From Eunapius fragilis (taxonomy: Eukaryota > Porifera > Demospongiae > Spongillida > Spongillidae): a stretch of 64,000 nt of DNA. The stretch spans positions 1,205,715 through 1,269,714 of the forward strand of contig OY811976.1 in NCBI GenBank assembly GCA_963681505.1, given 5' to 3'. Positions 44,832 through 64,000 of this stretch are shown here, piece after piece (positions within the stretch are counted from its first letter, which is position 1; the number at the start of each line of letters is the position of its first letter). The position numbers were made by a program, and so were the translations under genes. The notes under the pieces were generated by a model, which made no database searches, had not been told where the DNA came from, and saw only the letters and a program-made list of their open reading frames with translations.

Positions 44832-44846
44832 CACAACCAAAATTTT
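44832..44846 (+). repeat. Left TIR of element 1
   Basis: CACAACCAAAATTTT preceded by TA (44830-44831). Inverted partner at 55520-55534. Confidence 0.75.
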
Positions 44847-45474
44847 CGGCAAATTATCAGTACCGGGGCAATTTTATAACCCGTACGAGTACCGATAAAT
44901 GGTTACATCCGAAATCGGGCATGATATAACACAGTTAGTACCGGGTGTACACTACATGTTGGAGCGATGTGTTTACGTGCCCGAAGTAGGCTACTACCCT
45001 AACCGTAACGACATGTTATAGTTATCGCGGCGTATAAATAATAGGAAGGACTTCAAAGACAAAGTGGAGGGGGGCAAAATTCGGCACCCTCGCAAAGCGC
45101 TGCAATCTTCCGTACCGAGGTTCAGGCCTCACCATAGAAGCCATGCAACGCTTTGACATTAGTAAGAAATACACAGGCTCACCCCGATCTTTCTCGAGTA
45201 AAGTCTTAAATAGCGAGTTTCATGCTAACTTCACTGATTCCAGCACTGTTATAATTTGAGGTACGGTATGCAACTGCCCCCCCTCCCAATCCCTTTACTA
45301 CGCCTATATGAATAATAGTTTGAAAACATCATATATGATTGGAATTGTTTATGCAAGAAATCATAAATGGGATTAAAAGCAATTGAGTATAACATGTCCT
45401 GATCAGCAGTTGCGTGCATGCAGTTGTCGGCATCTTATGAGAGAGGGAGAACAGTAGAGGCCAAAGAGGTCTCC

Positions 45475-46603
45475 TCAGGTGATGAAGTGGTAAGGGTACT
45501 GCATGGTAGTAGGAGGGAGGAAGTAATCGAACTCTCCATCAACGTAGACAACTTCTTCTAAGTCTGCAGATGGTGGTAATGATTCACCATATATCCCCTT
45601 CAGCCATTTCCTAAATTCTTTGAACGTGTCCTTTTTTGATTGTGGGGCTGTTCTTACAAATGTTCGCTGGATTATATGGTAAATCAGTTCTGAATCGTAA
45701 TGGCACATTCAGGTAAATTGATAGTACTTACCAAAACCAGGCTGCAAGGTTAGTTCTATATTCAGGAAGGACATTTATGTCTACCTTTAATGACATAATG
45801 AACTTTTCGGCAAATTCCATTGTTGGGAGCTTTGCATAACCCCCACATGGTTGTATGCCAAACAACTATAGAATACATCTATAAACTGATATCTCACTCT
45901 GCGCCTTTCTTCAGATCGGATGTCAGTAAGCTTTTTCTTGCAATACTGCCTGGCCTTTTCTTTTAATGAGGTGGATAACTGGTCTCCAAGGACTGATCCA
46001 ATCATATCCTTTTTTTTTTTAAAGGTACTTGTAATCTATACTGATAACAAGAATGCAATATAATACTGATAAAAAAACTAACAAGATACCCCTGTTGGAC
46101 GGTTGACAGGTCAAGCTCCTGCAATAAAGGGTAGCAATACCCTTGTTAAGGGGCATAAAAAAATTATATATATGTCAGAAAGAATATTAAAATGGCTATA
46201 CCTTGAACGGACTTTTCTCGATTGTAAGTAGCAGTTCGGTGAGAGTTTCTACCGCTCGTTTTATTGCACCTAGATCAGCGGTCTGCATGTTAGCTATTGC
46301 CTGTTTCACCTCCTTTCTCATCGCACTCAACTCCCGGAAAACACCTTGTAGATCGACAGTTGGGGGAGTGGTTGCAACGCTGGGGGTTGCAAAATTTGCT
46401 GTGGTCGAAGGAAAGGAGGGCGACAGTTGAGTGTCTTGGATTCCACTGGTTCTAATTGGCCGATCATCCCTTGGCCTTGGCCTTGCGGAATCTGAATGGG
46501 TTGAGCTCCTACCACGAAGCAAAGGGTTCTGCACACTTCCAGAGGGTTCATTTTCCGTCCTTGAATGCCATGGAAGAGAAGTACTTGTGAATGTTGTGCT
46601 CAT
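45475..46603 (-). pseudogene. Element 1 partner gene (coiled-coil accessory protein)
   Basis: Exons 46202-46603, 45898-46008, 45732-45865 and 45475-45666 correspond one to one with the four exons of the element 2 partner. Exon 2 has the identical length, 111 nt, and ends at the same EERRR codons. The first exon is Ser/Thr/Pro-rich, then helical and likely coiled coil (FRELSAMRKEVKQA...VETLTELLLTIEKS). Exon 3 has LFGIQPC...EFAEKF against LLGLRPC...EFVEKF. Exon 4 has RTFVRTAPQSKKDTFKEFRKWL. Exons 3 and 4 do not join in phase in my reading (exon 3 is 2 nt longer than its homologue), so a small indel or altered splice site is likely. Start chosen at the Met that leaves 54 bp to the transposase ATG. 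Confidence 0.7.
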
Positions 46604-46657
46604 GACTGTGTAAACACTCTGTGTAAACAAAGCCACGTGCAGCAGATTACTTTGATT
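46604..46657. promoter_or_regulatory. Bidirectional promoter region of element 1
   Basis: Only 54 bp separate the two divergent start codons. It contains CACGTG at 46634-46639 next to GTGTAAAC. The equivalent 51-bp interval in element 2 also holds CACGTG. Promoter function is inferred from geometry and this shared motif. Confidence 0.45.
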
Positions 46658-49600
46658 ATGGCGGAACCGTTGTCAGAAGGTAAAAATCAGTGAAATAATG
46701 AACAGAGCTTACGGGAATGAGAAATAACCCTTTGTGACTATTTCGTCCGTACCATATTCTGCAGTGTTTCATTGTGAGGTCTGCAAACAAAGCTTTGCGC
46801 AAAGTTGGAGGCTAACGAGGCATCTTCAAACGCAGAAGCATCTGTCAAACGTTGAGGCGCTTGCGATTGATGATCCATCCCATACTGACTCGCAGCGAGA
46901 GGTATACTTTGTGTTATTAGCTCTTGGCCAATGCTGTTACAATTTCCTTGTTCTTATAGGATGAAAGTGATGGTTACAAGGTAGAGGAGACCTTTATGTT
47001 GAGAAGCGACATGTATTCTGAATCTGATTCAGATGTTGAGCTTGAAACAGGCAAGCTAATTGGCTGCATATCTGTGTACTATAATAAGGGTATATGGTTG
47101 TAGACAATGAAGTGTGGCATGGGAACTCTCTGATTCATCACACTGAAAATTATTACCTATGCATTTCCAAGTAAAACGTTTGCACTCCTTTTCTTTCACT
47201 TGCACAGTCCTTGTCCAATGGTATGTACAGCATGCATATGTATATAAATATATATATACAATACATGCAATATGTATATCTGCATGTTGGGTAAATGTTT
47301 CATAATTTATTGTAGGGAGAGACTAATCTCCGCTTCATGTGGGCTACATTGAAAGGTGCTGGAGTAGAAGTACCAAGTCTCCATAAGGTTAAACAGTTTC
47401 AATTACCAGATTTTGTTCCTCCAAAAAGGGTATGATGTACATGTAGCAAAACTTGTAGCATACCTATATTGCAGTGACTATACTTACAGGTTCCGTCTCT
47501 TGTAAATACGCCATTCAATAATTTCTCACTGCCTTGGAAGCAGCAAGTTATCTCACCTTCTTGTCCGTTATCCAGTGGTAAATAACATATATACGTAAGT
47601 TGACCAACTGTACTCTGTGTAGAGACGTAGATTTTGAATTTGTTTTTATTTAAGTGAGACATTTCATGGGAAAAAGTGGAACACCGATAGCCGATTTGCA
47701 TCTCCAATGGCTGTATTTGATAATGGAGTGGACGTCTTTGTTCGAGATTACATTTATTTCCAACATCCTAGACTGGGTCTTTCCAAGGGTGTGATTGTGA
47801 AGTTTTTTCAAATGGTATGTTTATGTTTTGATAGGGCCACACCACAAGTATAATTTACTGCAATTACTATTAGGAATCTTGCAAGGAAGCATACTGTGAA
47901 ATTGACACGTTGGTTGATATCAATTGCTTTAATCAACTAGTGCTAGACACAGAGGCTTATATTCATAATCATGTTGAAATCATATTTGATATGATAGCGA
48001 TACCAATTTCAGCTGTGCATGGCGTATGTGAAAAACCTACTGAGGTGATTAAGTGGGATGAAGGTACTCATTCATACGGCCTAGTCATGAGGTATCTTTG
48101 TGCTTATTTAATTGCACCTTATGTTAATCTACTATTTCTATTATCCTTAGGATTCTTGCAATTATTTAAAAGTCAATCCTATCAAAATATAGGCAGCTGG
48201 AAGAAAGGTAGTAATGCTACCTCTCATCGTGTTCACAGACGACTTAAGTGGTAACAAAAGTAAAAAGTGGCATAAGTTTGAATCCTGGTACATCATGCTA
48301 GCTGGTTTGCCAAGACATGAAAATGCAAAGCCTCAAAACATTCATTTTGTGTCATGTACTGACCTTATGATGTGCTTGATATGACAGAATGTGTTGCACA
48401 ACAACTTCAACAGCTTGAACTTGATGGCCTCATGGTTTATGACTCGTAATACAAGCAAACTGTGTTTGTGATTGCTCCTCTTCTTTGTGTCATATGTGAC
48501 AACCCTCGTGCATCTCAACTGCTTAACCATCTTGGGAGCTCAGCTAATAAATTTTGCCGTTTTTGCATGGTGAGTGCAGCTGAAATTGATTTGTATGGGT
48601 TAATAAGAAAATTTTATTTAGGCTGACAGTGCTACACCATGTTCGATCTGTGAAGAAAGAACAAGGGACAAATCTTTGCTGCAAATACAGGAAATACAAT
48701 CCCGGCATACCGAAAAGGACAAATCTGAAAAGAGCACTGAGGTAGGATTGTGGGATGTCCCAAATTCATTACTCTACATCCCAGCAGACCTCTACAAGTA
48801 AGTTAGCTGTAAATTATAACTGTACCAACATATTCATATACATTCATTATTTTACAGATGCATTCCTGTTGAAGTGTTACATACAATGTTACTGGGTGCA
48901 TGCAAATACTTCTTGAGCAATGTGATGCCTACGTTGTCAAAAGAACATAAACAGCAAGTTCTTGCACAAGTTTCTGCTTTTAACATGTCTGGATTTAGTG
49001 TGAAAATACATGGCAATGTGTGCAGACATTATAAGTCATTTTTTGGTAGAGATTATAAGGCATGGGCACAAATGGCCATTTTCATTCTCCATCCGTATCT
49101 ATCTTCTGGCCAAAAAAAAGTGCTGCTGAGCCTTTCAAAGGTAGTTCATGATAATGAGTGTTTTCAGCCCCTCAGTTTTATTTTCATGCAGGTATTTCAT
49201 GCTGCATATTGTTGCCATTTTGAGCCATCGCAAGCTGAAGAACTGCGGCACATTTGCCAGGAGTATGTGGATAATTGCATGGCTCACATGCCAGAGCCGG
49301 TTGGTCCATAAACAGAAAACACACTACCTTCTACATCTGGTTGACTGTATGCTTAACTATGGACCATCATCTGCATTTAGTGCAGAAAGGTAATGAATGA
49401 TCATTAAAACCCTGTCTAATATATTCTCATTATGCTGTGGTGTAGGTGCCAATCATTCAATTCCATGGTTCGGCTGCAGAACATCTATGGAATAAACTTG
49501 CTCCCAGCAGAGATATAGCTATCCACTTTGCTCATGTGGATCACGTTCGTTATATCTGTGAAGGTGGCCTCTTCAACATGAATGAACAGTAAATATTGTA

Positions 49601-50340
49601 ATTGTATTCAGTGTTAAAATCTATATACAATGCATGCTGCTTTTATAGATGTGGCAGTGGGTTGCGTGAGCTGTACAACACAAATGATGTTCAACATTTC
49701 TTCAACTCTGTCCCCATGAAGGTTTAAAAAAATGCGAAGAAAATTTATCAACCAGGCTGTGGACGAAAGGTTTGAACTGTATGGCTCTTAAATTCATGGG
49801 GCACATTCATATCCTTCACAGGTTTCCACACATGTTCTATACCTTTTGATTTAGTCAAAATTGACACACAAGATCTCCAATCTGTAACTTTCAGCCAACT
49901 CCTTAAAATGGATCCTCCATTTCAAATACTCGGCCTGGACTTAGGTGATGTACGTCATCAAGCTGTTGTGCAGTGCGAAGCCGTGTTTTCTAATAATGAG
50001 CTCATCCACTCTGGTGATTATGTTAAGTTCCGTTCTCCTGTTAATGAGGTATAACAGTACAATGATAATGTCTGCTAAGTATGCAATGCATTTTATCTAC
50101 CTGTAGTTCTTGTATGGTCAACTCCTTACAACACTCCAGCTAACATCTAGTGGTGCAACTATGTGCTTCGTGCAAGGGTTCGAAGCAATGGCTCTGGTTG
50201 ATGGAACACCACTTTTGAATGAGTTTGACTGACTGTCCATTGTCTCATTGGCACGAACCATTCTCTCAGTGGATAGCAGCAACATACTTGCAGCAGTCTC
50301 CTTCGTCCATGAATGTGATGAAGCACTGATGTAACTTTGT
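46658..50340 (+). pseudogene. Element 1 C2H2-finger transposase-like gene (broken)
   Basis: Exon 1 is 46658-46679 (22 nt, MAEPLSE). Exon 2 is 46765-46901, with a C2H2 finger CEVCKQSFAQSWRLTRH...H. Later recognisable pieces, in order and homologous to element 2: FPSKTFALLFFHLHSPCP (about 47160-47220), GETNLRFMWATLKGAGVEVP (from 47316), VFVRDYIYFQHPRLG (about 47730), PISAVHGV (about 48000), FTDDLSGNKSKKW (about 48230), CDNPRASQLLNHLG (about 48500), IPVEVLHTMLLGACKYFL (48850), HYLLHLVDCMLNYGPSSAFSAER (49320-49390), APSRDIAIHFAH (about 49510, shifted frame), HSGDYVKFRSP (50000) and LLTTLQLTSSGATMCF (50120). Defects: frameshift and stop near 48370-48450, frameshift before APSRDIA, stop near 50231. 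Compared with element 2 it is clearly a different lineage, not a recent copy. Confidence 0.82.
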
Positions 50341-52271
50341 GGAAAGGAATGTGCAGCTCACACATGAAAGAGAAGAAACCGCATGGCCAGAAATGGAGGA
50401 CATGAGTGAATATGTAAAGTTGTGATAGAGATTTGAGAATTCTGATTTCACCAATAAATTTGTCACCTTTTTAAATGAATTATTATGTTTCAAGACAAGA
50501 AATTATTAATTCAAATGAATTAACTAAAATTAATTTTTTCAAATTGAATTCCAAACACGTTCAGAATTCGCTAAGAATCGGTCTGATTATAGTGTACGTG
50601 TATCATGAAAAGAATATCAAGCATCCATTAACTAAATTCAAGACAAATTAATTAATTACAACCGAGTATAATTAATTATATTCATAAACGTATGTCATTA
50701 TGTAATACCTTGCGTCATCTTATTGATGTGTCGTCTGCTCACGAGACTAACATTAAAATAGTACGATACATTGTGCTAAACCTCCGTTTCTGCAAAGATA
50801 AAAACGAGTCTTCACGTTACAACTACGGTACGCCCACGCTTATGTGGATTGATGCAGCGCAAGTGCGCAAATTAAAAATTCTGCGTGCCAGACTAGTGTA
50901 TAATAACAACAGGTCCTGACATGTTTTTGTTGTTGCCGAAGCACTATCAAAACTATATCCTACATACCATGCGCAAATTTAGTTGAGCTCCCAGATACTA
51001 AGTCATTTCGTGCATTGCTCACATACACAATAGTGGAACTAATCGTGATAACCGATTGAGTATTTTAACACGAGCTAGGTGTCGCCGCTACATCAAGCGG
51101 GAATGAGAATGGTAGTGGTGTTTTACCGTTTCGTTCGAGTACGTTTTAAGCCAAAGCGTTTGAGCTATCGAACAGTATATGGAGAATTTTCTGTTGATTT
51201 GTATACATGTAGCACGATTATTTCCCCATCTGTATCGTTTTTAATGTGCTAGTGCAATTTGGTTATATCAGCAAAAAACCATAGTGAGTCTTAATAATCG
51301 TGGGATTCGGGGATAAAAACACGAAGTTAAAGCAAGATCACACAATACACATTTTACCATACAGCAAATGTATAGTATATAATTATATGGGTCAATTCAC
51401 GAGAAAATGACCCTTCGCTATATTTTTTAAAGTTATAAAAATGACTCACGTTTGAATCGCTATAACTTCGGAACGGTAAACGCTACTGACTTCCTATTTT
51501 CAACACTTCATACTGCATCATTTCCCTCTGGTAAAACAGATTATGGGCTCTTGCATTAGCTTCGTGCCAGTGTTACAACGTCCGATACCCCTTGGGGTTC
51601 AAACCCGCCATATCTTTCGGCAGGAAGATTCAATTCACTCCCAGTTTGGTTTACACGTAGAGGGATCCTGTACCTATTGATTTGTTCTGTTCGTTAATTT
51701 TTTATTTATCCGTTACGGGGATACAACTCTGCAAAGTAAATGCATATTTCCCGGTCGTTTTGCGCCATTTACCTATTACGACTGACATCGAGGACATGAA
51801 ATTCAATTACTTCCTGTTAAATAACTATGTCTCCGCCCATCCATACATTATACAACAAGTACGGCGTTATCGCTTCTTGCAAACGTCTGGTTCTGTTCCC
51901 CTTCAACATAGCGAGCAGAAGCTAAAGATTCGTAATACATGGATTCAGCTGCCATCAGCCTGCGCAACACGGTACGTATTCTGTAGCGCATGCACGTAGA
52001 AATCGAGAGTGTTGGCTCGGTCAAACTGCTTCATTTATGCATGCACAACGCTGCAGAGCATGAAAGTGCACGGTGTCTAAGGCTAGCTTAATCTGAAACG
52101 CACCCGTCCTTTTTGACTTTTGCACACGCACAGATATATCAAACATGCATGCACCCACTTGTAGCTACTCTCAATCATTGGCCTACTAAAACCTCTTTCT
52201 TGTTTAATTTTTCTTCATTTGTGAACCAATTATATTTGGTTCTACAAAATAATATCCATACAAAATATAAT

Positions 52272-52272
<1 letters not shown>
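50341..52272. other. Right arm of element 1, no gene recognised
   Basis: No recognised coding sequence. A 105-codon ORF at 51682-51999 (plus) has no family I know. Confidence 0.4.

Positions 52273-52336
<64 letters not shown>
52273..52336. repeat. (CA)n microsatellite
   Basis: About 32 uninterrupted CA units. More CA-rich clusters lie at about 52950-53010, 53215-53240, 53360-53460 and 53690-53760. Confidence 0.97.
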
Positions 52337-52348
<12 letters not shown>

Positions 52349-52974
52349 TGCACACACTCACATTCATACACAACCTCAGATCAGAGCAATTGGTGTCATT
52401 TAATTCTGTCAGAATGCTCCCTCATGCTTAGTTTCCAATTGGTGGTGTGCATGGCATAGTTGATTGTTTGCCCAAAAGGGGTCAGGCGACTGTGGGTTTG
52501 CTGTCCCCCTGCCCTGAGTGTGACTGGAACTAAGGTTACCATTTGGTTAGCCCACACCTTGACGCTGGTCAAAGTAAGGTGGATAGGCTAGGGTAGAAGC
52601 CAAAAGGGTGCTACCTGCCATTGATGTATAAACAATAACACCTGTAGCAATACATGTATAAGTACAGCCATGGTAAGCAACGCAGCAGGCATTTAGCTGG
52701 AGTGATTGCAGCCCACCTCTACCATCCTTTATACATACATGTGTGACCTGCAACCATACCAGGTGTCAATATTTTGGGGACAGTGTGTTAGATGGGGTAT
52801 GATCAAAAGTGAGGGAATGAGTTAAATGGAGGGTTAAATGGAGGTGAGGCTTTCCCAGACATTTAGGCTCAGGGTAGAATGAAAGTGAGGTTTTCCCTGA
52901 AGATACTCCAGGCTAGAATTTAGCTGGGAATTTAGTGTTGCCATGTGCACTTATACACACACATGCACACTCGC

Positions 52975-53011
<37 letters not shown>

Positions 53012-54558
53012 TGTACACACACACCATGGGCAGTCAGTCACATCAATGCTTTGCTATTGCAATTTATTATATTTCCTAATTGTCGACCCACATACAAAAC
53101 ATTAAACTGTTTTTAGCTGTCATCCTATTCATCACATGCTTCTCTTTTGTATTTCTATTGGAGCCGTACCTTTGTCTTAATTGTCTTGTGTATCAATGTG
53201 CACGTTTATGCATGCACACACATACACACCACACACAGGCACTAGCATACACTTGCAACTGCAGTCACATGTTTATTGTTTGTGTAAATGTGTGTTTCCT
53301 TGCTCTGGCAATTACCAACAGGTCTTCTAGTTGCCTTTTGCACTTTCAAACATAGGCATGCACATACACACACACACACACACTAACACATACACACACA
53401 CATGGACACAAACCCACATGCACATGCACGCACATTCATTTACACACACAGGATTCATGCTTCAATCACAAACGTGCATATGTACACATAAAAATGGCTT
53501 TGGCAGTCATCCATCACACACACACATGCACCCACACACTCACGTACATAGAACTGGCCTCTGCTTTGTAAAATTATTATCTAATTTTCCTGTTGTCTCT
53601 TGTTGCTATGAGCACACTTACTAGATGTGAGCCTGCACTACAAGAATGCACACTTATGCACACAGGCATGCATGTACAAACACATACACACTCACACAAA
53701 CAAACAAACAAACAAACAAACACACACACACACACACATACACACATACACAAGTGCAAACCACCCGCACTCTCCATTCTGCCTGGTACACTCACATTTG
53801 TCCATTAGAGCTTGTTGGTCCTTAATTCACCATTTTGATTTTTTTTTCTTCTGCTGCTCCTGTTTGGCTTCCACTGATGTACCCATGGCCTCCACTAGAT
53901 GCTCATGTCCCATCACCTACACTAGATGCTCATGTCCCACGATTCTAAGTACTAACTTATCCGGTTGAGTAGCGCCAGCAGCTAGGTAGGTGCACAAGCA
54001 TGCACCATCACCCATAGCCGTTAAGGTTTTTAATATACAAGACATGTATCCAGGTTAAGAAGTATCTCCGATGCTATGGAGAGATAGTTTCTGAGCTAGC
54101 TTTCTGTGATTCCATTAATTGCCTTTCACCTTGACCCATCCATGTCTGTGTGGGCTCATCTCATGCCATCCCCCACCATCATGATAAACCTGCTAACCAA
54201 AATAGGCTCAGTGACTTAAGCTCACCTCAGTGTATTGCTGGAAGCTTTGGTAAGGCTCATGGCTCTAGACCTGTCCACCACCTATCCAAACCCCTAACGC
54301 TATACACAGCATGGGCCACAAAGATCGAAAATATGCCTGTTTTATGACACCAATTATTATGGTCTGGGGTGAGTGTTTCCACTTGTTGCTGAGTTCTATG
54401 GATAGAGGCATTAGCTATAGACTGGCCTCTGCTTCACCTCCTTACACATAGCTAATGGATTTCCAGATGTCATTTAGAGATTGATTGTGTATGTGCTTGT
54501 GTGTGTGTGCGTGTCTATGTGTATTTTGTATGTGTTGTGTGTGTACATGTGAATGAGT

Positions 54559-54564
<6 letters not shown>

Positions 54565-54629
<65 letters not shown>
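54565..54629. repeat. (GT)n microsatellite
   Basis: About 32 GT units with one C interruption. A CA-rich stretch lies 200 bp on (54826-54900), so the two could form an inverted pair. Confidence 0.95.
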
Positions 54630-54631
<2 letters not shown>

Positions 54632-54906
54632 CCTGTGTGGTGTGATTGAAACGTGTATTCTGGAAAAGGGCTTGGGTTGGAAGCCTTGCATACCTGGCAG
54701 TGAATATCATTGCTACCCTATCACTACTGATAGTGGTTAGACTGGGCCTCTGTAAAGTTTGGATTGGATTGAGTGTAATAGTATTCACATCCAACTGCTC
54801 CCATGTACCCATGAGTTCTAGCAACACACACCTACACACACACACACACACACACACACTCATGCACACACACTCATGCACATACACACACAACACGTAC
54901 AAAGCA

Positions 54907-55032
54907 CATACATACATACATACATACATACATACATACATACATACATACATACATACATACATACATACATACATACATACATACATACATACATACA
55001 TACATACATACATACATACATACATACATACA
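54907..55032. repeat. (CATA)n microsatellite, about 31 units
   Basis: 126 bp of perfect tetranucleotide repeat inside element 1. A second (CATA)n array lies in element 2 at 58356-58519. Confidence 0.97.
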
Positions 55033-55519
55033 AATGTATAAACGAGATGGAGTAAATGGAATTTAGAATTCTGAGGCAGCTTATAGCTGATGCCTCTGTG
55101 CATGTACCTTAGCAACAAGTGGAAAATTGGTGTCATTATAAAACAGGTTCATGTTTGGCATGCCAGCTCTGCGGAAATGTCAAGGCTTGTTTTGGAACAT
55201 AACTGGAGTAATATTTTGTTCTGTAATAACCTTTTCTGTGTACAATAAATATCATCCGACTATTCAAGTAAACTGCATGAGAAATATTTAGCGATTACGA
55301 ACCAGCCCAGGCCACACGCAATGTATTGCAACCCGATAACAGACCTTATACGCCCTCGGTACGATCTGTTTACGGCACGGAGAAACACGATGGCCCGTCA
55401 TAAATACTGGCACCCGACGCAACCATAAAGGGTTAAATTCGCCATCGTTACAGTATGCATGGTTTACCTATTACGACATACCATAACAGGAAATTTACGG
55501 TAACCGTAGATCGAGGGCC

Positions 55520-55534
55520 AAAATTTTGGTTGTG
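55520..55534 (-). repeat. Right TIR of element 1
   Basis: Inverted copy of CACAACCAAAATTTT followed by TA (55535-55536). Confidence 0.75.
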
Positions 55535-56011
55535 TACCGTAATGTTCTAATTATGTACGTGTGTTTTACGGCCCTCTTGGGCGAGGTTGACTTATGAAGC
55601 TAGCTAGGCCCCTGCGACGAGATAAAACGACGGAAAAAGGAAGAAACTAAAAGGAAATCAAAAGGAAGATTAATAAAGGTACGGCTGTCGGAGATGCTAT
55701 TTTAGAAGGACGGGCGGTGGTATAGATAAATGAGCCGTAGAGTGAAGTGTTATTAATGGACTCACAGCGATTCAGGGCTTTGATTCCGGGCCCGTGACAG
55801 CACGCAATATCACCCGGAAGAGCGTGCTTTCGAATTTTGCGCGCCATGTGCTCTCGAAATTGTGAGTGGACCGATTTCATATGAATGATTTCTCGGTCCC
55901 GGAGGATTATTTGTATGCGCACGGGGTATTTCGAGAGCAACGTCGCGCGCGAACGTGCATTTTTGTACGTGACCAAGGAACCTACCGTGTACGCGTAATA
56001 GAATTATCGTA
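55535..56011. other. Spacer between the two transposons
   Basis: 477 bp, no gene recognised. It contains two nearby inverted GC-rich phrases (CGCGCCATGTGCTCTCGAAAT and ATTTCGAGAGCAACGTCGCGCG, about 55838 and 55927). Confidence 0.4.
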
Positions 56012-56024
56012 CACAGCCAAAAGT
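56012..56024 (+). repeat. Left TIR of element 2
   Basis: CACAGCCAAAAGT preceded by TA (56010-56011). It shares CACARCCAAAA with element 1. Confidence 0.75.
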
Positions 56025-56030
56025 TATATA

Positions 56031-56200
56031 TTGGTACATTGGATGTTACGGTATTGTTACAAGATGATATCATTGTTGTAAGCCATCTTGATATCAATGA
56101 TTGGTACGCACCCGTTGGACAAAGTTGGTACAATGACTGTTGAATTAATAACCGTACAAACATGATAACAACCTGTACCATGGCATGTTACAATATTGGA
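56031..56200. repeat. Subterminal motif cluster, left end of element 2
   Basis: TTGGTAC occurs at about 56031, 56101 and 56125, and GTTACAA-type motifs at about 56055 and 56187, with ACAACCTGTACC at about 56169. In En/Spm-like elements such motifs are binding sites of the accessory protein. That role here is inference. Confidence 0.5.
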
Positions 56201-57309
56201 TCACTGCATGATGGGTAGGAAAATTAATCCTAATAACTGTGTCTATAGATCCATATCCGTATATTCTTGTTCTCATATCTTGGATAGGTACGTTGCCATT
56301 AAAAATTAATAAACTTAACAATTACAAATTATAACGAATGTGTCCAGTACTCTCTTCAGTTGATTCGGGCCCATAAACACCAGAACGATGACGAGCGCGA
56401 GCGTTGGTCATTCAATGTTCCATGTCCTATCGCAACTGCCATAGAGTAACCTAACAAAGTGATACATACACATGGTGAAAATGCACACATGCAGCTATCC
56501 AGAACGCAGAGGCCTACATGGTTTACGACGCCAAGTGAACCATCACGAGATGCAAGTTAGAACTTCATACGACAATGCATCTCTAGAATGGGCCAAACAT
56601 ATTGGTTAAAAATGGATGATCAAGATTTAAGCCTTTACCTGTAACGGTGGCAAGCGTGTAGTCATAGCGAAGCCCCGCTCCGCTACTTCACGAAGGCCAA
56701 AAACCTCCCGTGTATCCAATCATCATTCTGTCAACAGATGTTACATGTAGTGAGTTATGAATGTGAATTTAAAAAAAAAAACACTTACCCTCAAACTTAA
56801 TTCTTTAGTTCTCTGACATGCCTGCAAGATAACAACACCATGATTCCAATTGGTGCTCACCTCAACTAAACATACCTGTAGTTAAACACCCTCTGCTGAA
56901 CGTGGAACGATGAAAGGATGGGCGCAAAGGATGTGGCACTTAACATGTTTCGCTCTGATGTGAAAGTAATATCACTTCGTTGTTGTAAAGACACCGCCAT
57001 TAGAACCAGCAGACAATAGAATTGCAAAAGACGCAGCACCGATAAAAATAATACACTGTGTTCCTTATTCTATCTGTACCTTTGAGTTTAACCTAGCCTG
57101 ACCAGTGAATCGGAGTGTTTACAACCTGGCGCACGTCAACTCGATTGCAAACGCAACGCGGCAAATTATTTTTAATAACCACTATCTGGTGATTTATAAA
57201 CCAACTTTTATTCAATACAATCATATCTACGATACACCGTTGCCTAAAGTTCCATTCTAATAGGTGGTGAGGTTTCTAGCTAGGTTACACCACATTTATA
57301 CACATTATA

Positions 57310-60300
57310 TTAACACATACAATATACATTGTAGCAGTACATATAATTCCTGTAGTCATGTATAAAGTGCAGTCCAGGTGCATCTACCTCTTCTTGCTCC
57401 AGCAGTACAGATGCAGAGGCCTCCTCAAATTTGCAACTGTCTGCACACAGGTGGACAAATGACACTGATTTTGATACATTTGTCGCTTCAGTTGTGAAAA
57501 TCGTCTTTGTTAGTTCAAAAATAGGACAGTCGTGGTGACTAAGAAGTGGTACAGCATTGCTGATGCAAGGTTGAAAGCCCTGTATGATACAAAATACAGT
57601 GCCACCAGTTGACTTGCAGGTGGTGAGCAATACCCCAAACTTGAAGTTCTGAAAGAAATATAAATATGTAAACAACGAGAACAATTTGAGCTTTGAGTCC
57701 ATACCTCAAAAGGGACACACAATTCCACGTATTCACCACTATGTACCAGCTGCAACGATTTAGAGATTACACCTCGATACTGCAAAACCTTCTCAGAAAC
57801 ATGCGTGTGGTTCAGGGTAACATCAAAAGGTGGCATGAGGTTTTGCAGCTCCGTAAGACAGCACTCTTCATACCCTACTACACCAATTGCAATCGATTTT
57901 AAAACTGAAATCTTGGTTCTGTGACACAACTGAAGGTTGTAATGATTATACATGTACAAGGAATATATCGACATACCAATCGTGGTGATCCATGCTGATA
58001 TATTTGCTTTCCACTAAAGAGGACACTTTTTGATGTGCCATAGAGATATGCCTGAGCACAGTTAGATGAGTACAGGTCTCTGAGAGCTCCTCCACACCTA
58101 TAAGAATCAAGCAAAAATGACTTATATGTCAAAAAGTGCATGCATGCATCTACTTTTCAGAGTCGCCATAGCAGCCTCCATCTGTAATAGCACGGATGTG
58201 TTGCAGGATAGCAAAATGTTTAGCTATATCACGGCTGGGAGCCCGTCTATTGCTAAAAATATTTTGCTCCCTAACCTTTGAATTATAGTACTCAAACCTA
58301 CAAAGCAAGCAAGCAATATTCAATGGATAGTTTAATAGCATGCACACAATACACTCACATACATACATGCATACATACATTCATACATACATGCATACAT
58401 GCATACATACATACATACATACATACATACACACATACATACATACATACATACATACATACATACATACATACATACATACATACATACATACATACAT
58501 ACGTACGTACATACATACAACAACTATCAAATGCAGACATGAAACACTGGCATGTACCTTGTATTGGTACAATTCATTGTATAACATGCATGTTTACCTT
58601 TCAGCACTGAAGGCAGCTGTTGGTCCATACTGCATAAAACACTGGGGAATGTGAAGGACAAGATGGATCTTCAGTTTATGTATAAGTTCTGGCATGAATT
58701 CATTCACAGTGTCCACAAATGACTGGCATATTGCCTGCCATTCATCGAATAAAGATGGTGCAAAACTATCACAGTACATCATCTTGAAGACCTGAAAGAA
58801 TGGAACATTAAAAGTACTGGTTATTTATTTCATTGCATGTACCTTGGAATAGCTCAAAAGTACTTTTTTGTGACCCTCACTAACATATGGATCAAGAATA
58901 AATGGTGCCATTTGTGACCATGCTTTAAAATCACGGCCAACAAATGATCCATAGTACCAGCACACATTTCCGTACATTTTTGTCTCAAAACCAGACGTGT
59001 TAAAAGCCTTTACACGGGCAAGGATCTCTTTTTTCTGATGCAAAGAAAATAATGGCATAACTTGCTTCAGTATGTACTTGCATGAACCAAGTGGTACTGT
59101 ATGAAGAGGTTCAACAGGAAGGGCTCTGTAAAGAAGCAATTGTAATCCTCATAACAAAACATTTGAACTCACATATAGATATTCAGTTTTAAACCACAAA
59201 GAAACGGATTTGGTGTAGCCCTCAAGCCATACAAAGTAGATAGCTCTGCTTTACGTTCATTTGTCCTTGCAGACTTAATTTCAGCTATTTGAGCAATTGA
59301 TTTTTCCAGTGACCTGATCTCTGCAATTACTTTAGGAGACTCAATCCTGTCAGCCTTTAAAAGGGATGTTAAACTTAAAAGGTTAAGTTGAAAAACTGTA
59401 AGCACATAGCACTTACCATACAAATGCGGCAATATTTATTAGCAGTAGCTCCAAGATGATTTGCCAGCTCCGAAGCACGTGGATTATCAGCAACAATGCA
59501 CATTACTGGGGTAATGACCAAAACATCCGTTTTTTGATGTGCATCATTGGCCTGAACCCCTTCATTCTCAAGTTTTTCCAATTCAGCCACAATGGGTGTA
59601 CTCATGTCCAATGGAGAAACCTTATCTGATGTGCAAAGAAACACCAAATTGGGCAATTTGGCATTTTCCTGGTGGGACAGGCCAGCAAAAACAAGATACC
59701 AGGAATTGAAGGCATGCCACTTTTTGCTCCGATTGCCACTAGTGTCGTCGCAAAATAAAACCACAGGCATCACTACTACTGGCCTCCCAGCGGCTTTCAT
59801 CTTCAATGGATGAGGAGAAAAGTAATCTGTAGTTTCCTGCAAAAGTGAAGAAACGTATGTCATTCTACATACAAGAAGTAATGATTATTCACCTGCAAAC
59901 CAAATCTTTGGAATCCTTGTTCGCGCCATCTAATGATTGATGACGGTGGAGGTGATAGACATTCAATTGATGATATGGGCATGGTTACAGTATGGTAAAT
60001 GACAAAGCAGTCATTCGGGATAAAACAATCAGACGAATACTCAGGTGTGCTACAGAACTGCTCATTACTAAGGAGAACCTCAATTTCACTGTAGAGTTCA
60101 TTAGGCAAGTTCTGAGTATATAAGACCACACAAGATAAAACCACACAAGATAGGAATTATATTTTAAAAACTAACCATGGCAAAAAACCTCAGTACAACT
60201 CCTCTAACTGTCCCAAACTGAGCATGGTTGAAGTTAACACAATCACGAACAAACACATGAGTACCATCCATCAGAGTAACCATAGGTGTGTGGTAGCGTG

Positions 60301-61368
60301 TGTCATTTCTCCAACAATGCGCATGATAGATTTCTCTAAACATGCAGTATTTACAGAACTACTGACCAAAAAATTCAAGTAATAAAATAACTGACCTATA
60401 AGGTCCTGTGGTACACACAGGGTAGCGAGCAATCATGGATGAAACCTTTGGATTACCAATGAACTGCTGAACAACTCGTGCCAAAGATATGCAGTAAAAT
60501 GGTGTTCCGTCTGGTGAAAGGTGCTGCACGAAGAAACAATACGCATAAAGAACTAGGACTTAGTCTAGTGACAATTCTTACCTTGGATGGCAATGTTAGC
60601 CCTGGTAACTTCCATAATTTAAGTGTGGTAATGCTGGGTATGTCAACACCACACTGTTTTATGATATGCCATATAAAAGCAAGACTAGTCTCTCCCTTAA
60701 ACAAGAGTATATTAAAAATACTACAATACATTAGTAACATTACTCACAATGGGATGTGGTCCATGAAGTAGTAAATATAGCATAGCAAATTGCTTGTTAG
60801 GGAATGGACTAAAATCACCACTGGAGTGGGATGTCAGTTCATTAACAAGGTCATCCACATCTTCACTTTGCCATTCATCAGAACTGTTTTCATTCATCTC
60901 ACGGTCATCATTGTCAACTCTCTGCACCTCCAAATTGTCCTATATAATATGCACCATTATGAATCATTATTAAAATACCTATCGACATGACCACTTCCCG
61001 CAAAACGTGGATTGCATACAGCTAATAACATTCATTGCTGGGTTTGTAACGATGTATACATGTGTATCAAATCACCCCCCGCCCCCTCAAAGTATCGTTC
61101 ATAAAGGTACCAACGCACTGAGGATACTTCAGTTGGACTGCTTTTCGGAATGGGCTGACGGTGTTTCCTAAACGTTGCTTCCATTATTCGATGAGCAGCA
61201 GTGTTTAGGTGTCGGATTAACCGGCTTTGGAACGGAAAGTTTTCCTTGCATACATCGCAATGAAATTCACCTTTTATCACGGTAAGATGAAAGTAGTGAT
61301 AGAATGCCTTATACATGTATATAACATCAGCGAATCCATATTATACCTCGAAATATTTCAGAAGCCAT
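57310..61368 (-). CDS. C2H2-finger transposase-like protein, element 2 (15 exons, 961 aa)
   Basis: Exons, 5' to 3': 61347-61368, 61128-61270, 60748-60939, 60582-60695, 60396-60523, 60176-60335, 59893-60111, 59417-59836, 59173-59354, 58843-59125, 58598-58791, 58154-58297, 57977-58097, 57705-57929, 57310-57648. They total 2886 nt with all phases matching and no stop. C2H2 finger: C12, C15, H28, H34. An acidic linker lies in exon 3. Candidate catalytic core: FCDDTSGNRSKKW (D356/D357), VADNPRASELANHLG (D443) followed by YCRICM, LPVEPLHTVPLGSCKY, HLVLHIPQCFMQYGPTAAFSAERFEYYN (E near 685-688), and NRRAPSRDIAKHFA. A C-terminal domain has VHSGEYVELCVP and LLTTCKSTGGTVFCIIQGF. It probably binds the element ends and cuts DNA in the nucleus. 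The family resembles Tnp2/EnSpm-type proteins and uncharacterised basidiomycete proteins with DDxSGN and APSRDIA motifs, as I recall them. The catalytic residues are my proposal. Confidence 0.88.
58356..58519. repeat. (CATA)n microsatellite in intron of the transposase gene
   Basis: About 40 units with GCATA and CGTA interruptions, lying wholly within the intron between the exons at 58154-58297 and 58598-58791. Confidence 0.95.
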
Positions 61369-61419
61369 GTTTAACTTTTAACCCCGGCCTGTGTTTAATT
61401 TCAAAACACGTGCTCAGAA
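61369..61419. promoter_or_regulatory. Bidirectional promoter region of element 2
   Basis: 51 bp between the divergent ATGs. Contains CACGTG at 61407-61412 and TGTGTTTAA nearby. Element 1 has CACGTG and GTGTAAAC in its 54-bp counterpart, although the flanking genes have diverged strongly. Confidence 0.5.
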
Positions 61420-62511
61420 ATGAATCGCGCGCTGCTTCCGGGTGCCAGCTCCAGGATTTCAACCCCACAACGTCCATTAGCTGCACAGCAGATCAACAGT
61501 GCAACCCCTGCCACCAACGCGGTACTGCCAGCTGAATCCCATCCTTTGTACCCCATACTGAAGGCTATCAAAGAAGAAGCAATAGCTCATAAAGAAGAAA
61601 TGAAAGTGATGAAGGCTCAGCTGCACCAGTTCAATGGATTGCTGTGTGGATTACAAGATGAAGTTAAAAAGTTGACAAACACAGTGAAAACTGCAAATGA
61701 AAAAGGATTCACTATTGAGGATAGTGGCTACAAGGTTATGTAAATTTGTGTGACAAATTTTGTTTTACTATATGTATAATATTTGTAATAGACCGAATTA
61801 AGCTTAGAAGTGTCCCTTCTATTTTGCAAGTCTGTTTCAAGGAATCCTGCCAAAGAGGATATTGGGGTTGGTTATTATAAATCATTGTTGCCACTAAAAT
61901 TATATAATAGAATAGAATGCCATTGTGAAGGTCCTTAAGAATGATAAGGAAAACTACAAGCTTAAAAAGGCTCTTGTGTACTGCAATGGCTACCTTACAA
62001 TGTTGAGAGCTGAAGAAAGACGAAGGGTATTTAAATTAATTAATTATCTAGTTATTGTGATGATGATTGCTGTGTTCATCAGCTATTAGGTCTTCGGCCT
62101 TGTGAAGCATACCTGCATTATACCACACATGAGTTTGTAGAAAAGTTTGATGCTATCCTAAAAGTGAATGATCCTGCTATACGTTTGCAGTATGAACACA
62201 GCGTTGCATTTTTGGTATGTTTTTGCATACTATGCAATCATTTAACATTTATCTGTTGTGCATTTTGATAGCGGACGTATCTGAGGACACATGATGATGC
62301 AAGGAAAAATACCTACAAAGCATTCGAGGAATGGCTGTCCAGGCGTTATGAAGGGGGCCAACCGCCAGCTGCTGTACTGGAGGAGCACTACCATGCAGAC
62401 CATTTGTACAACTATAGCACTGCCCCATCCCATGTTACCGGTGCAGAGCCAGAGCCTATGGAAGAACAACTTGATTTTGGCGTTGGAGAGCACCATTTTG
62501 AAGCACACTGA
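61420..62511 (+). CDS. Partner (accessory) protein of element 2 (4 exons, 265 aa)
   Basis: Exons 61420-61734, 61916-62026, 62083-62214 and 62272-62511 total 798 nt. All introns are phase 0 and no stop interrupts. Residues about 1-40 are Ser/Ala/Pro-rich and probably disordered. Residues 45-98 are charged and heptad-like (IKEEAIAHKEEMKVMKAQL...LQDEVKKLTNTVKTANEK), a likely coiled coil. Residues 106-142 carry KKALVYCNGYLTMLRAEERRR. Exon 3 gives LLGLRPCEAYLHYTTHEFVEKFDAIL. Exon 4 gives RTYLRTHDDARKNTYKAFEEWLSRRY and an acidic tail. The element 1 partner aligns along its whole length with the same introns, so purifying selection on this protein is likely. No known family recognised. A TnpA-like role (binding subterminal motifs, bridging the ends) is a hypothesis from position only. 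Confidence 0.82.
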
Positions 62512-63615
62512 AGTAAGACAAAAACAAAGTGAACAACAGTAATAAGCTGCTGACCAAATTGTATCCTCGCTCAAAAACTCTTGCACTCATTATTCATATT
62601 CTCCAGCTTATGCTTATCCAGTTATCATATGTATTCTCATAGCCCATGCATTTGAGGCAGTGTATAACATCTGATCTTGTATCACATATGCCAATTTGAG
62701 ATTGCGATATTTGCATATAAGCATGAGCATGTACGTACATATCTGAAGGCTCAGGAAAGGGTTAAATGTCACTAGAATGATTTGTTTTGTTCACGGCACG
62801 GGTCCGCTTTCCGATGTCTTCTATTCACAATCCTTAATTAAGAAGCATAAGCGATACTTGGATGTCATTGACATTGCGAAGACCAATCATTCATAAAGTA
62901 ATGTAAATGCATCTGTGACTATCTCTTGCGCAGAAATTAACTTGATGTGCTTCAATCAGAAATCTGTGTTTACATGTGTACTGACGTAACGATTTACTCG
63001 GGTACCGAGAGTACGCATCGGGACCGACTGGTACCTGTAGGGTCTACTAAATCTCTAGCATCCAAAGAAGGTGGAGGTGTGTTTGATCTGGTCCGATGAT
63101 GCCAAACGTAGGGACAAGAAATACCCTTTCAGCGTCGTAGACAAGGGGCAAAGAAACGCCCCTAAGACGTGACATTCTAGCGAGGCTTGACTGCCTCATT
63201 TGTACCGGTTGAAGGTGTGAAGTAATAACTACTTCCTCTAATCAGTAGCTAGACCTAGAGGAGTTCGTCGGATGAAACATGCATCACTTCAGTCTGAGTC
63301 ACTAACTTACCGTTCCTCCTCTCAAGCTCAGTGACAGCTACATTAAGTTACGCGACGCTGTTGTGGCCCAAGAGTGAGGTTGTGAAGCTTTTAAAATAAA
63401 ATAAACCCCTCTATATTAAAAAGGGCACGCAATGCATCACGCGATGCTACATCATGTATCAATAAATTTTTATCAGGAATGATTATGGCTGATATGGAGA
63501 AACAAGTAACAGGTTGTACCGTCATGAATTGTAACAACATGTAAAACTGATACAATTATTGTATCAATGAGCGTTACAGGTTGTAAGCGCTATCATTATT
63601 GGTACAGTCATGTAC
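62512..63615. other. Right arm of element 2, subterminal motif region
   Basis: No gene recognised. The last 150 bp contain AACAGGTTGTACC (about 63508), TTGTAACAACATGTAA (about 63528), GTTACAGGTTGTAA (about 63574) and TTGGTAC (about 63599), matching the left-end motifs. Confidence 0.5.
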
Positions 63616-63628
63616 ACTTTTGGCTGTG
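63616..63628 (-). repeat. Right TIR of element 2
   Basis: Inverted copy of CACAGCCAAAAGT followed by TA (63629-63630). Confidence 0.75.
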
Positions 63629-64000
63629 TATGACGTAAGGAAAGTTAAAGATACTAGTTAATACTATTATTAGTTAGTGATCACAGTCAAAAAATTTAAT
63701 GTTTCAAGTTTACAAATATAAATCTATAAAACATACAAAGTTGATAGAGAACAAACCTGTTCGTAAAAAAGAAAGCATAACTGAAACAACACTTTCACCA
63801 AACATGGCCTTACCTCCCAGCAGTTGATTGTGAAGTTTTAACATAGACTGGGTCATTCTATGGCAGATCACCCGATGGACATGCTATTTTTCCACCACAC
63901 CCCCTCAGATTTGAATTATAGTTTGCAGATCTGTTTAGTATATTAGGGAAAGTACGGCCACCAATTATCACATCTGTGTCTTTATCAAATCTTGAGAATC
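63629..64000. other. Flank after element 2, nothing recognised
   Basis: AT-rich, no ORF or repeat of note. Confidence 0.4.

Follow-up and report, generated by a model that had tools for sequence, protein, structure and literature searches.

EnSpm-like transposons with TA duplications (ESTA) have been described from rust fungi by Kojima (2025; PMC12730594). Their transposases belong to the CMCT clade, in which the element ends are mostly CA..TG and the motifs C(2)C and H(3-4)H lie between the second D and the E; three of the families described encode a TET/JBP dioxygenase. CNEST of Cryptococcus neoformans (PMC12810828) is an element of ~7.2 kb with a CMC transposase, a TA duplication and 33-bp ends starting with CACGG; it has no Repbase hit, falls into one clade with unclassified animal transposases and is called a new superfamily by its authors. 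Sly1-1 of Neurospora crassa (PMC4592977; 11.5 kb) carries a CMC transposase gene and, next to it and divergently transcribed, a gene of unknown function; the two are kept together in Chaetomium. Published systems are characterized here and below from the available parts of each source. The element compared with them lies in the sponge Eunapius fragilis, in a stretch of 64,000 nucleotides (assembly GCA_963681505.1, contig OY811976.1, positions 1,205,715 to 1,269,714, forward strand), which as a whole is termed the window. It occupies 7,617 bp (window 56012-63628) and is very probably a complete cut-and-paste, TA-inserting transposon of the CACTA group in the wider sense, with an intron-rich transposase and a conserved second gene on the opposite strand (the partner).

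An intact two-gene DNA transposon, enclosed in matching inverted repeats next to TA, had been proposed from the sequence of the window (the original prediction), and this description holds. The repeat CACAGCCAAAAGT is read inward at 56012 (+) and 63628 (-), TA adjoins each repeat, both gene models are stop-free, and the ends are common to other copies. The termini of the element are CACAGCC..GGCTGTG. In the genome searched (219 Mb, 24 contigs), TACACAGCCAAAAGT with no more than one mismatch gave 176 matches (85 + 91) vs 14 for a reversed control pattern. The proposed check for further copies and empty sites was productive on both counts. The full copy L009 (contig C18, 7,822 bp) has both ends and is 99.6% identical to the window element end to end outside a microsatellite, the differences numbering 4 in 3714 coding and 8 in 3701 non-coding positions; both its genes are open, and its transposase (973 aa) is stop-free. 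L010 (contig C7, 1,977 bp) is a deletion derivative, in which both ends are kept and the gene block is gone. L012, at 96-98% identity to the window element, is missing 1.2 kb on the left and keeps the right end, as do L011 and L013, which are without the gene block. Such gene-less derivatives would probably move in trans.

TA is found on both sides of all eight elements in which both ends were compared, and the flanks further out are unrelated; the ends of four of the more distant relatives (L017-L020) were located with a pattern that itself includes TA, two mismatches being allowed. A search with the joined flanks of eight insertions, carrying one TA, returned matches for four (window, L010, L018 and L019) and none for L009, L017, L020 and a decayed neighbouring element inside the window (the neighbour). 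From the 41 matches, eight empty loci were fetched, and each of them has a single TA and no element; the 3-bp duplication of canonical EnSpm/CACTA elements was found at none of them. The insertion site of the window element itself has empty paralogues, two at 98% and one at 94% identity. The case of L018 is the weakest, because the matches extend only ~28 bases beyond the junction. Since empty paralogous sites keep one TA, the element duplicates TA on insertion.

The transposase gene (57310..61368, minus strand) has 15 predicted exons, and the spliced model gives 971 aa with no stop. A length of 961 aa had been predicted, which is compatible with this model: the junction of intron 2 (GGG/GTGATT..GAGAG/TTG, slashes marking the splice) is weak and sits in a poorly conserved linker, so the protein length there is uncertain. 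A spliced-alignment script given the 971-aa protein returns the same junctions, which is not an independent check of them. Introns in this genome measure ~50-60 nt. The ten internal introns of the gene (residues 129 to 744) occur at the same residue and in the same phase in 45 of 50 comparisons with five relatives (all ten in L018, L020 and the neighbour, eight in L019 and seven in L017). At either end of the gene, the two outermost introns lie elsewhere or within a few residues in the relatives, of which L017 shares the last two. The predicted N-terminal C2H2 finger is present, with a Pfam zf-C2H2 match below the cut-off; C15, H28 and H34 are invariant in six transposases, and C12 in the five having residues there. 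So many exons are unusual in comparison with plant CACTA transposases (1-6 exons in 64 surveyed), and to that extent the original prediction was right about the exon number, but a CACTA gene of 24 exons has been reported from soybean.

The motifs DDxSGN, DNPRAS and APSRDIA had been considered to lie outside the named superfamilies, a view that does not stand. Of the residues typical of CMC transposases, the first Asp lies in DDTSGN, the second Asp and the CxxC lie in DNPRAS..CRIC, and the HxxxH and the Glu in HLVLH..ERFE, the alignment with EnSpm running from the second Asp on. Across 14 exon-8 sequences D367 (not D366), D453 and C472 are invariant; D367 and D453 are likewise invariant in the six aligned transposases, in which C472, C475 and H678 are present in 6/6 and H674 in 5/6. 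The hhalign comparison of these six with three canonical EnSpm transposases of the same genome (98.3%, E 1.4e-14, 329 columns) pairs D453, C472/C475, the LHT..LG.CK block, H674/H678 and E698, whose counterpart is the Glu of FERFN. On this pairing E698 is preferred to E695, even though the latter does not vary among the six transposases. The DDE triad (D367, D453, E698), with C(2)C and H(3-4)H between the second D and E, agrees with CMC/CMCT. This layout and the alignment point to a CMC DDE transposase as the most likely mechanism, and the general EnSpm/CACTA plan that had been noted for the element is upheld. The transposase would bind the ends via its C2H2 finger and would cut and join with an RNase H-like domain, in which D367, D453 and E698 would be catalytic and CxxC and HxxxH could form a zinc site.

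Several observations weigh against this assignment. D367 falls outside the hhalign block, and its pairing with the first Asp of EnSpm is a gapless count from WYL/LYL. E698 is E in five of the six transposases and Q in the decayed neighbour; H674 is replaced by P in L019. The window protein scores 18 bits with Transposase_21 (curated cut-off 28.6). In the six-member Pfam comparison, where E-values only are given for members 2-6, Transposase_21 is matched by 4/6 (best E 2.7e-5) and Plavaka by 2/6 (best 1.7e-5); all transposase bit scores shown fall below the curated cut-offs. BLASTP of exon 8 against one canonical EnSpm transposase gave no match. Searched by profile against solved structures, the transposase gave weak matches that mostly cover its zinc fingers, RAG1 and Transib not being among them; a few further weak matches, to proteins with no relation to it (the trifunctional enzyme alpha subunit is one), were rejected. 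The diverged fragment L016 has CA, not TA, before its end. Three of the relatives are broken in the spliced reading: L017 by one stop and four frameshifts, L018 by one stop, and L019 by six frameshifts.

The Plavaka matches raise the question of whether the element could be a Plavaka transposon, for which PF18759 scores 25.2 and 21.8 bits in two of the six members. Both scores are below the 26.3-bit cut-off, the window protein has no match at E 1, and the ends are CAC..GTG, not TGT..ACA or CATCA..TGATG as in PlavakaA and PlavakaB (PMC12730594), so that this assignment is very improbable. The CAC..GTG ends and the remote profile similarity could also be explained by an odd-looking but otherwise canonical EnSpm/CACTA element, with Transposase_21 and a 3-bp duplication; subterminal repeats and a second protein besides the transposase are further points of likeness. 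The TA of the eight empty loci contradicts this reading. Moreover, the same genome carries canonical Transposase_21 genes: 150 of 305 candidates were scored, at 40-95 bits, all over the cut-off, and none of these 150 matches falls within any of the six transposase genes aligned here. A single canonical family was checked, in two copies: CACTGTGG forms its start, preceded by AC or AG rather than TA, and it has an unspliced open frame of 954 codons and no BLASTP match with the window transposase; neither its right end nor the length of its duplication was recovered. In Spm, furthermore, tnpA and tnpD are derived from one transcription unit. Because of the TA duplication, the lack of BLASTP similarity and the many exons, the element is not canonical EnSpm, and the chance that it is only an aberrant form of it is very slight.

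Relatives of the TA-inserting element are numerous. A six-frame search of the genome gave 112 exon matches at several dozen places, which is a lower bound; full alignments were made for the four fetched relatives and the neighbour, and all relatives compared come from one genome. Identity to the window transposase is 53% for L017, 42% for L018, 43% for L019, 44% for L020 and 42% for the neighbour. In the spliced reading the transposase of L020 has no stop and no frameshift, that of L009 is open at 973 aa, that of L012 has one stop, and that of the neighbour has four stops and six frameshifts. Among IMG/VR and prokaryote genomes, 74 and 61 pattern matches were obtained, none a relative by tblastn. 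Between the window transposase and L017, pS is 0.74 and pN 0.30, with dN/dS of ~0.11 and silent sites near saturation; for L012 dN/dS is 0.43 (21 silent and 33 replacement changes), and L009 differs by 0 silent and 2 replacement changes, too few for use. For the partner, comparison with L012 gives dS 0.047, dN 0.003 and dN/dS 0.07 (8 silent, 2 replacement changes). The values for the transposase against L017 and for the partner against L012 speak for purifying selection. Conserved introns and replacement changes lagging behind silent ones make both genes look real.

The partner is predicted to encode 265 aa in four exons, stop-free as had been proposed, and is open in the window, L009 and L012. 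It is placed head-to-head with the transposase, on the opposite strand, and a divergent partner is present at all eight loci examined (window, L009, L012, neighbour, L017-L020); only L019 and L020 were chosen blind, as the neighbour, L017 and L018 had a prior partner match and L009 and L012 are near copies. The same three introns were recovered in 14 of 15 comparisons, L019 having two extra. Starting from partner matches, a decayed divergent transposase was found at two of three loci (L045, L047). At the third, L046 (C1:8811500-8819000), a partner homologue lies near an CACAGCCAACAGT end adjoining TA, and no transposase could be recognized within the 7.5 kb retrieved. Family searches (Pfam, solved structures) gave no convincing family, the best solved-structure profile match being a designed helical bundle at E 0.079. 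By eye, the protein appears mostly helical with a coiled-coil stretch. A Pfam match to NET2A_C (27.4 bits, cut-off 27) was rejected because five relatives are without it and, by eye, it rests on the coiled-coil stretch.

Clustered subterminal motifs had been noted at both ends. They are evident when six elements (that of the window, the neighbour and L017-L020) are pooled: ATGATA is seen 18 times vs 2.0 expected, GTACCA 18 vs 2.3 and GGTACA 17 vs 2.0, the top ranks among 1,218 six-mers present in the end 237 nt. The window element alone offers a small count (GTACCA 5 in 600 nt of ends vs 0.75 inside), and a 7-mer search within single elements found nothing for five of the six. Plant En/Spm transposition requires TNPA, which binds subterminal repeats; between elements, the TNPA-like proteins have little sequence in common. 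By analogy, the partner is probably an accessory protein binding the subterminal repeats, TnpA-like; this is the best guess because of the enriched end motifs and the head-to-head pairing. Alternatively, it could be a captured or passenger gene outside the transposition machinery, with which L046 would agree. The pairing in elements only 42-53% identical, the three introns kept and the few replacement changes argue against capture and make it unlikely. As an accessory factor, the partner would act on the subterminal repeats as TnpA does in plant En/Spm.

Among the published systems, the element most likely belongs to the TA-duplicating EnSpm-like branch. Judged by description only, it resembles ESTA in the EnSpm-like transposase of CMCT type with C(2)C and H(3-4)H and in the TA duplication; it differs in coming from outside the fungi. 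No divergent partner, C2H2 finger or large number of introns is mentioned in the available description of ESTA (PMC12730594). The likeness to CNEST, also by description, lies in the CMC transposase, the size, the TA duplication and ends starting with CAC, whereas CNEST has longer ends and a single gene mentioned in the available text (PMC12810828). Terminal CA..TG with a duplication of 2-5 bp, as in CMC/CMCT, is likewise found here. Sly1-1 shares the divergent two-gene arrangement, but its target duplication is not TA alone, a third base being discussed (PMC4592977). Transposase_21 also occurs in the animal TRC elements, such as SmTRC1 (PMC1636069), and some of them show a direct repeat of 2 bp, but they have CCC ends and one alternatively spliced unit.

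CMC membership accounts for most of what had suggested a superfamily without a name, and leaves space for naming a sub-branch within it. As a tentative alternative, the element could stand for a superfamily of its own, in or next to CMC, that would be recognized by its TA duplication and CAC..GTG ends and by the combination of a C2H2 transposase rich in introns with a divergently read partner; ESTA and CNEST would be possible members. The pairing of partner and transposase at eight of eight loci (two of them chosen blind) and at two of three loci reached from the partner, the partner's lack of a convincing family and the rank claimed for CNEST speak for it, but the published TA-duplicating groups, compared by description, probably cover the element, and the relatives are all from one genome. 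Rather doubtful, too, is the fuller proposal of a TA-inserting CMC lineage of superfamily rank, in which the transposase would depend on an end-binding partner not described before, the two genes being read outward from one shared intergenic region, and in which an old exon map (~15 + 4) would have been kept over deep divergence. The element is a good new example of a recently named group, not a new class, and it combines an intron-rich transposase with a partner that the available ESTA and CNEST descriptions do not mention. The features of the element are collected in Table 1.

Table 1. Features of the transposon and its insertion site (window coordinates).
Feature	Position	Strand	Basis
Whole transposon	56012..63628		Ends common to other copies; empty sites with single TA
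Left TA of target duplication	56010..56011		Single TA in empty paralogues L021, L022, L023
Left terminal inverted repeat, 13 bp, CACAGCCAAAAGT	56012..56024	+	Read from sequence
Left subterminal region with TTGGTAC / TGTACC motifs	56025..56250		Motif listing and pooled six-mer enrichment
Transposase gene, exons 1-5	61368-61347, 61270-61076, 60917-60748, 60695-60582, 60523-60396	-	Spliced model
Transposase gene, exons 6-10	60335-60176, 60111-59893, 59836-59417, 59354-59173, 59125-58843	-	Spliced model
Transposase gene, exons 11-15	58791-58598, 58297-58154, 58097-57977, 57929-57705, 57648-57310	-	Spliced model
Exon 2 with C2H2 finger (C12, C15, H28, H34)	61076..61270	-	Pfam zf-C2H2 16.3 bits, cut-off 25.2
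Exon 8: D367 (DDTSGN), D453 (DNPRAS), C472, C475	59417..59836	-	14 exon-8 sequences; six-way alignment; hhalign (D453, C472, C475)
Exon 11: HxxxH (H674, H678); E695 near its end	58598..58791	-	Six-way alignment, hhalign
Exon 12: E698 (likely catalytic Glu), followed by APSRDIA	58154..58297	-	hhalign vs Glu of FERFN; six-way alignment
CATA microsatellite in intron 11, length varies among copies	58357..58519		Copy comparison
Partner gene, 4 exons (61420-61734, 61916-62026, 62083-62214, 62272-62511)	61420..62511	+	Spliced model
Right subterminal region with TTGGTAC / TGTACC motifs	63390..63615		Motif listing and pooled six-mer enrichment
Right terminal inverted repeat, 13 bp	63616..63628	-	Read from sequence
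Right TA of target duplication	63629..63630		Single TA in empty paralogues L021, L022, L023

A gap of 477 bp separates the element from the decayed neighbour on its left (window 44832-55534, 10,703 bp), whose ends, CACAACCAAAATTTT, adjoin TA. The neighbour has its transposase gene at 46740-50413 (+) and its partner, with two frameshifts, at 46471-45507 (-). Window 52258-54944, inside the neighbour, holds a cluster of long overlapping inverted repeats, with arms of 73-121 nt among the 25 listed. The CATA microsatellite of intron 11 is far longer in L012 (3648-4424) than in the window copy. The gene-less derivatives (L010 at 7129, L011 at 6998, L013 at 2452) are 67-97% identical to the window element by segment. 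On the right side they resume within a few bases of each other (window 62937-62941), which makes a recurrent breakpoint; one deletion common to L010 and L011 was considered and rejected, as their junctions differ. One end of L017 abuts another CACAGCC end back to back, with one TA between them (L017 6971-6974), and the abutting stretch has a canonical Transposase_21 match ~1.4 kb further on. At least 150 canonical Transposase_21 matches occur genome-wide, many in unbroken frames of 800-1000 codons, and the two copies compared are 99.6% identical.

The literature found gives names to EnSpm-like elements with TA duplications only from 2025-2026 on, and from fungi. The sponge element adds a complete two-gene example, and the same genome also supplies a nearly identical second copy, empty sites that match, derivatives without genes and many relatives at greater divergence. 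With this parts list it can be asked whether transposition in the TA branch depends on a second protein, as in plant En/Spm, and why the transposase of this branch keeps many introns while plant CACTA transposases tended to lose theirs.

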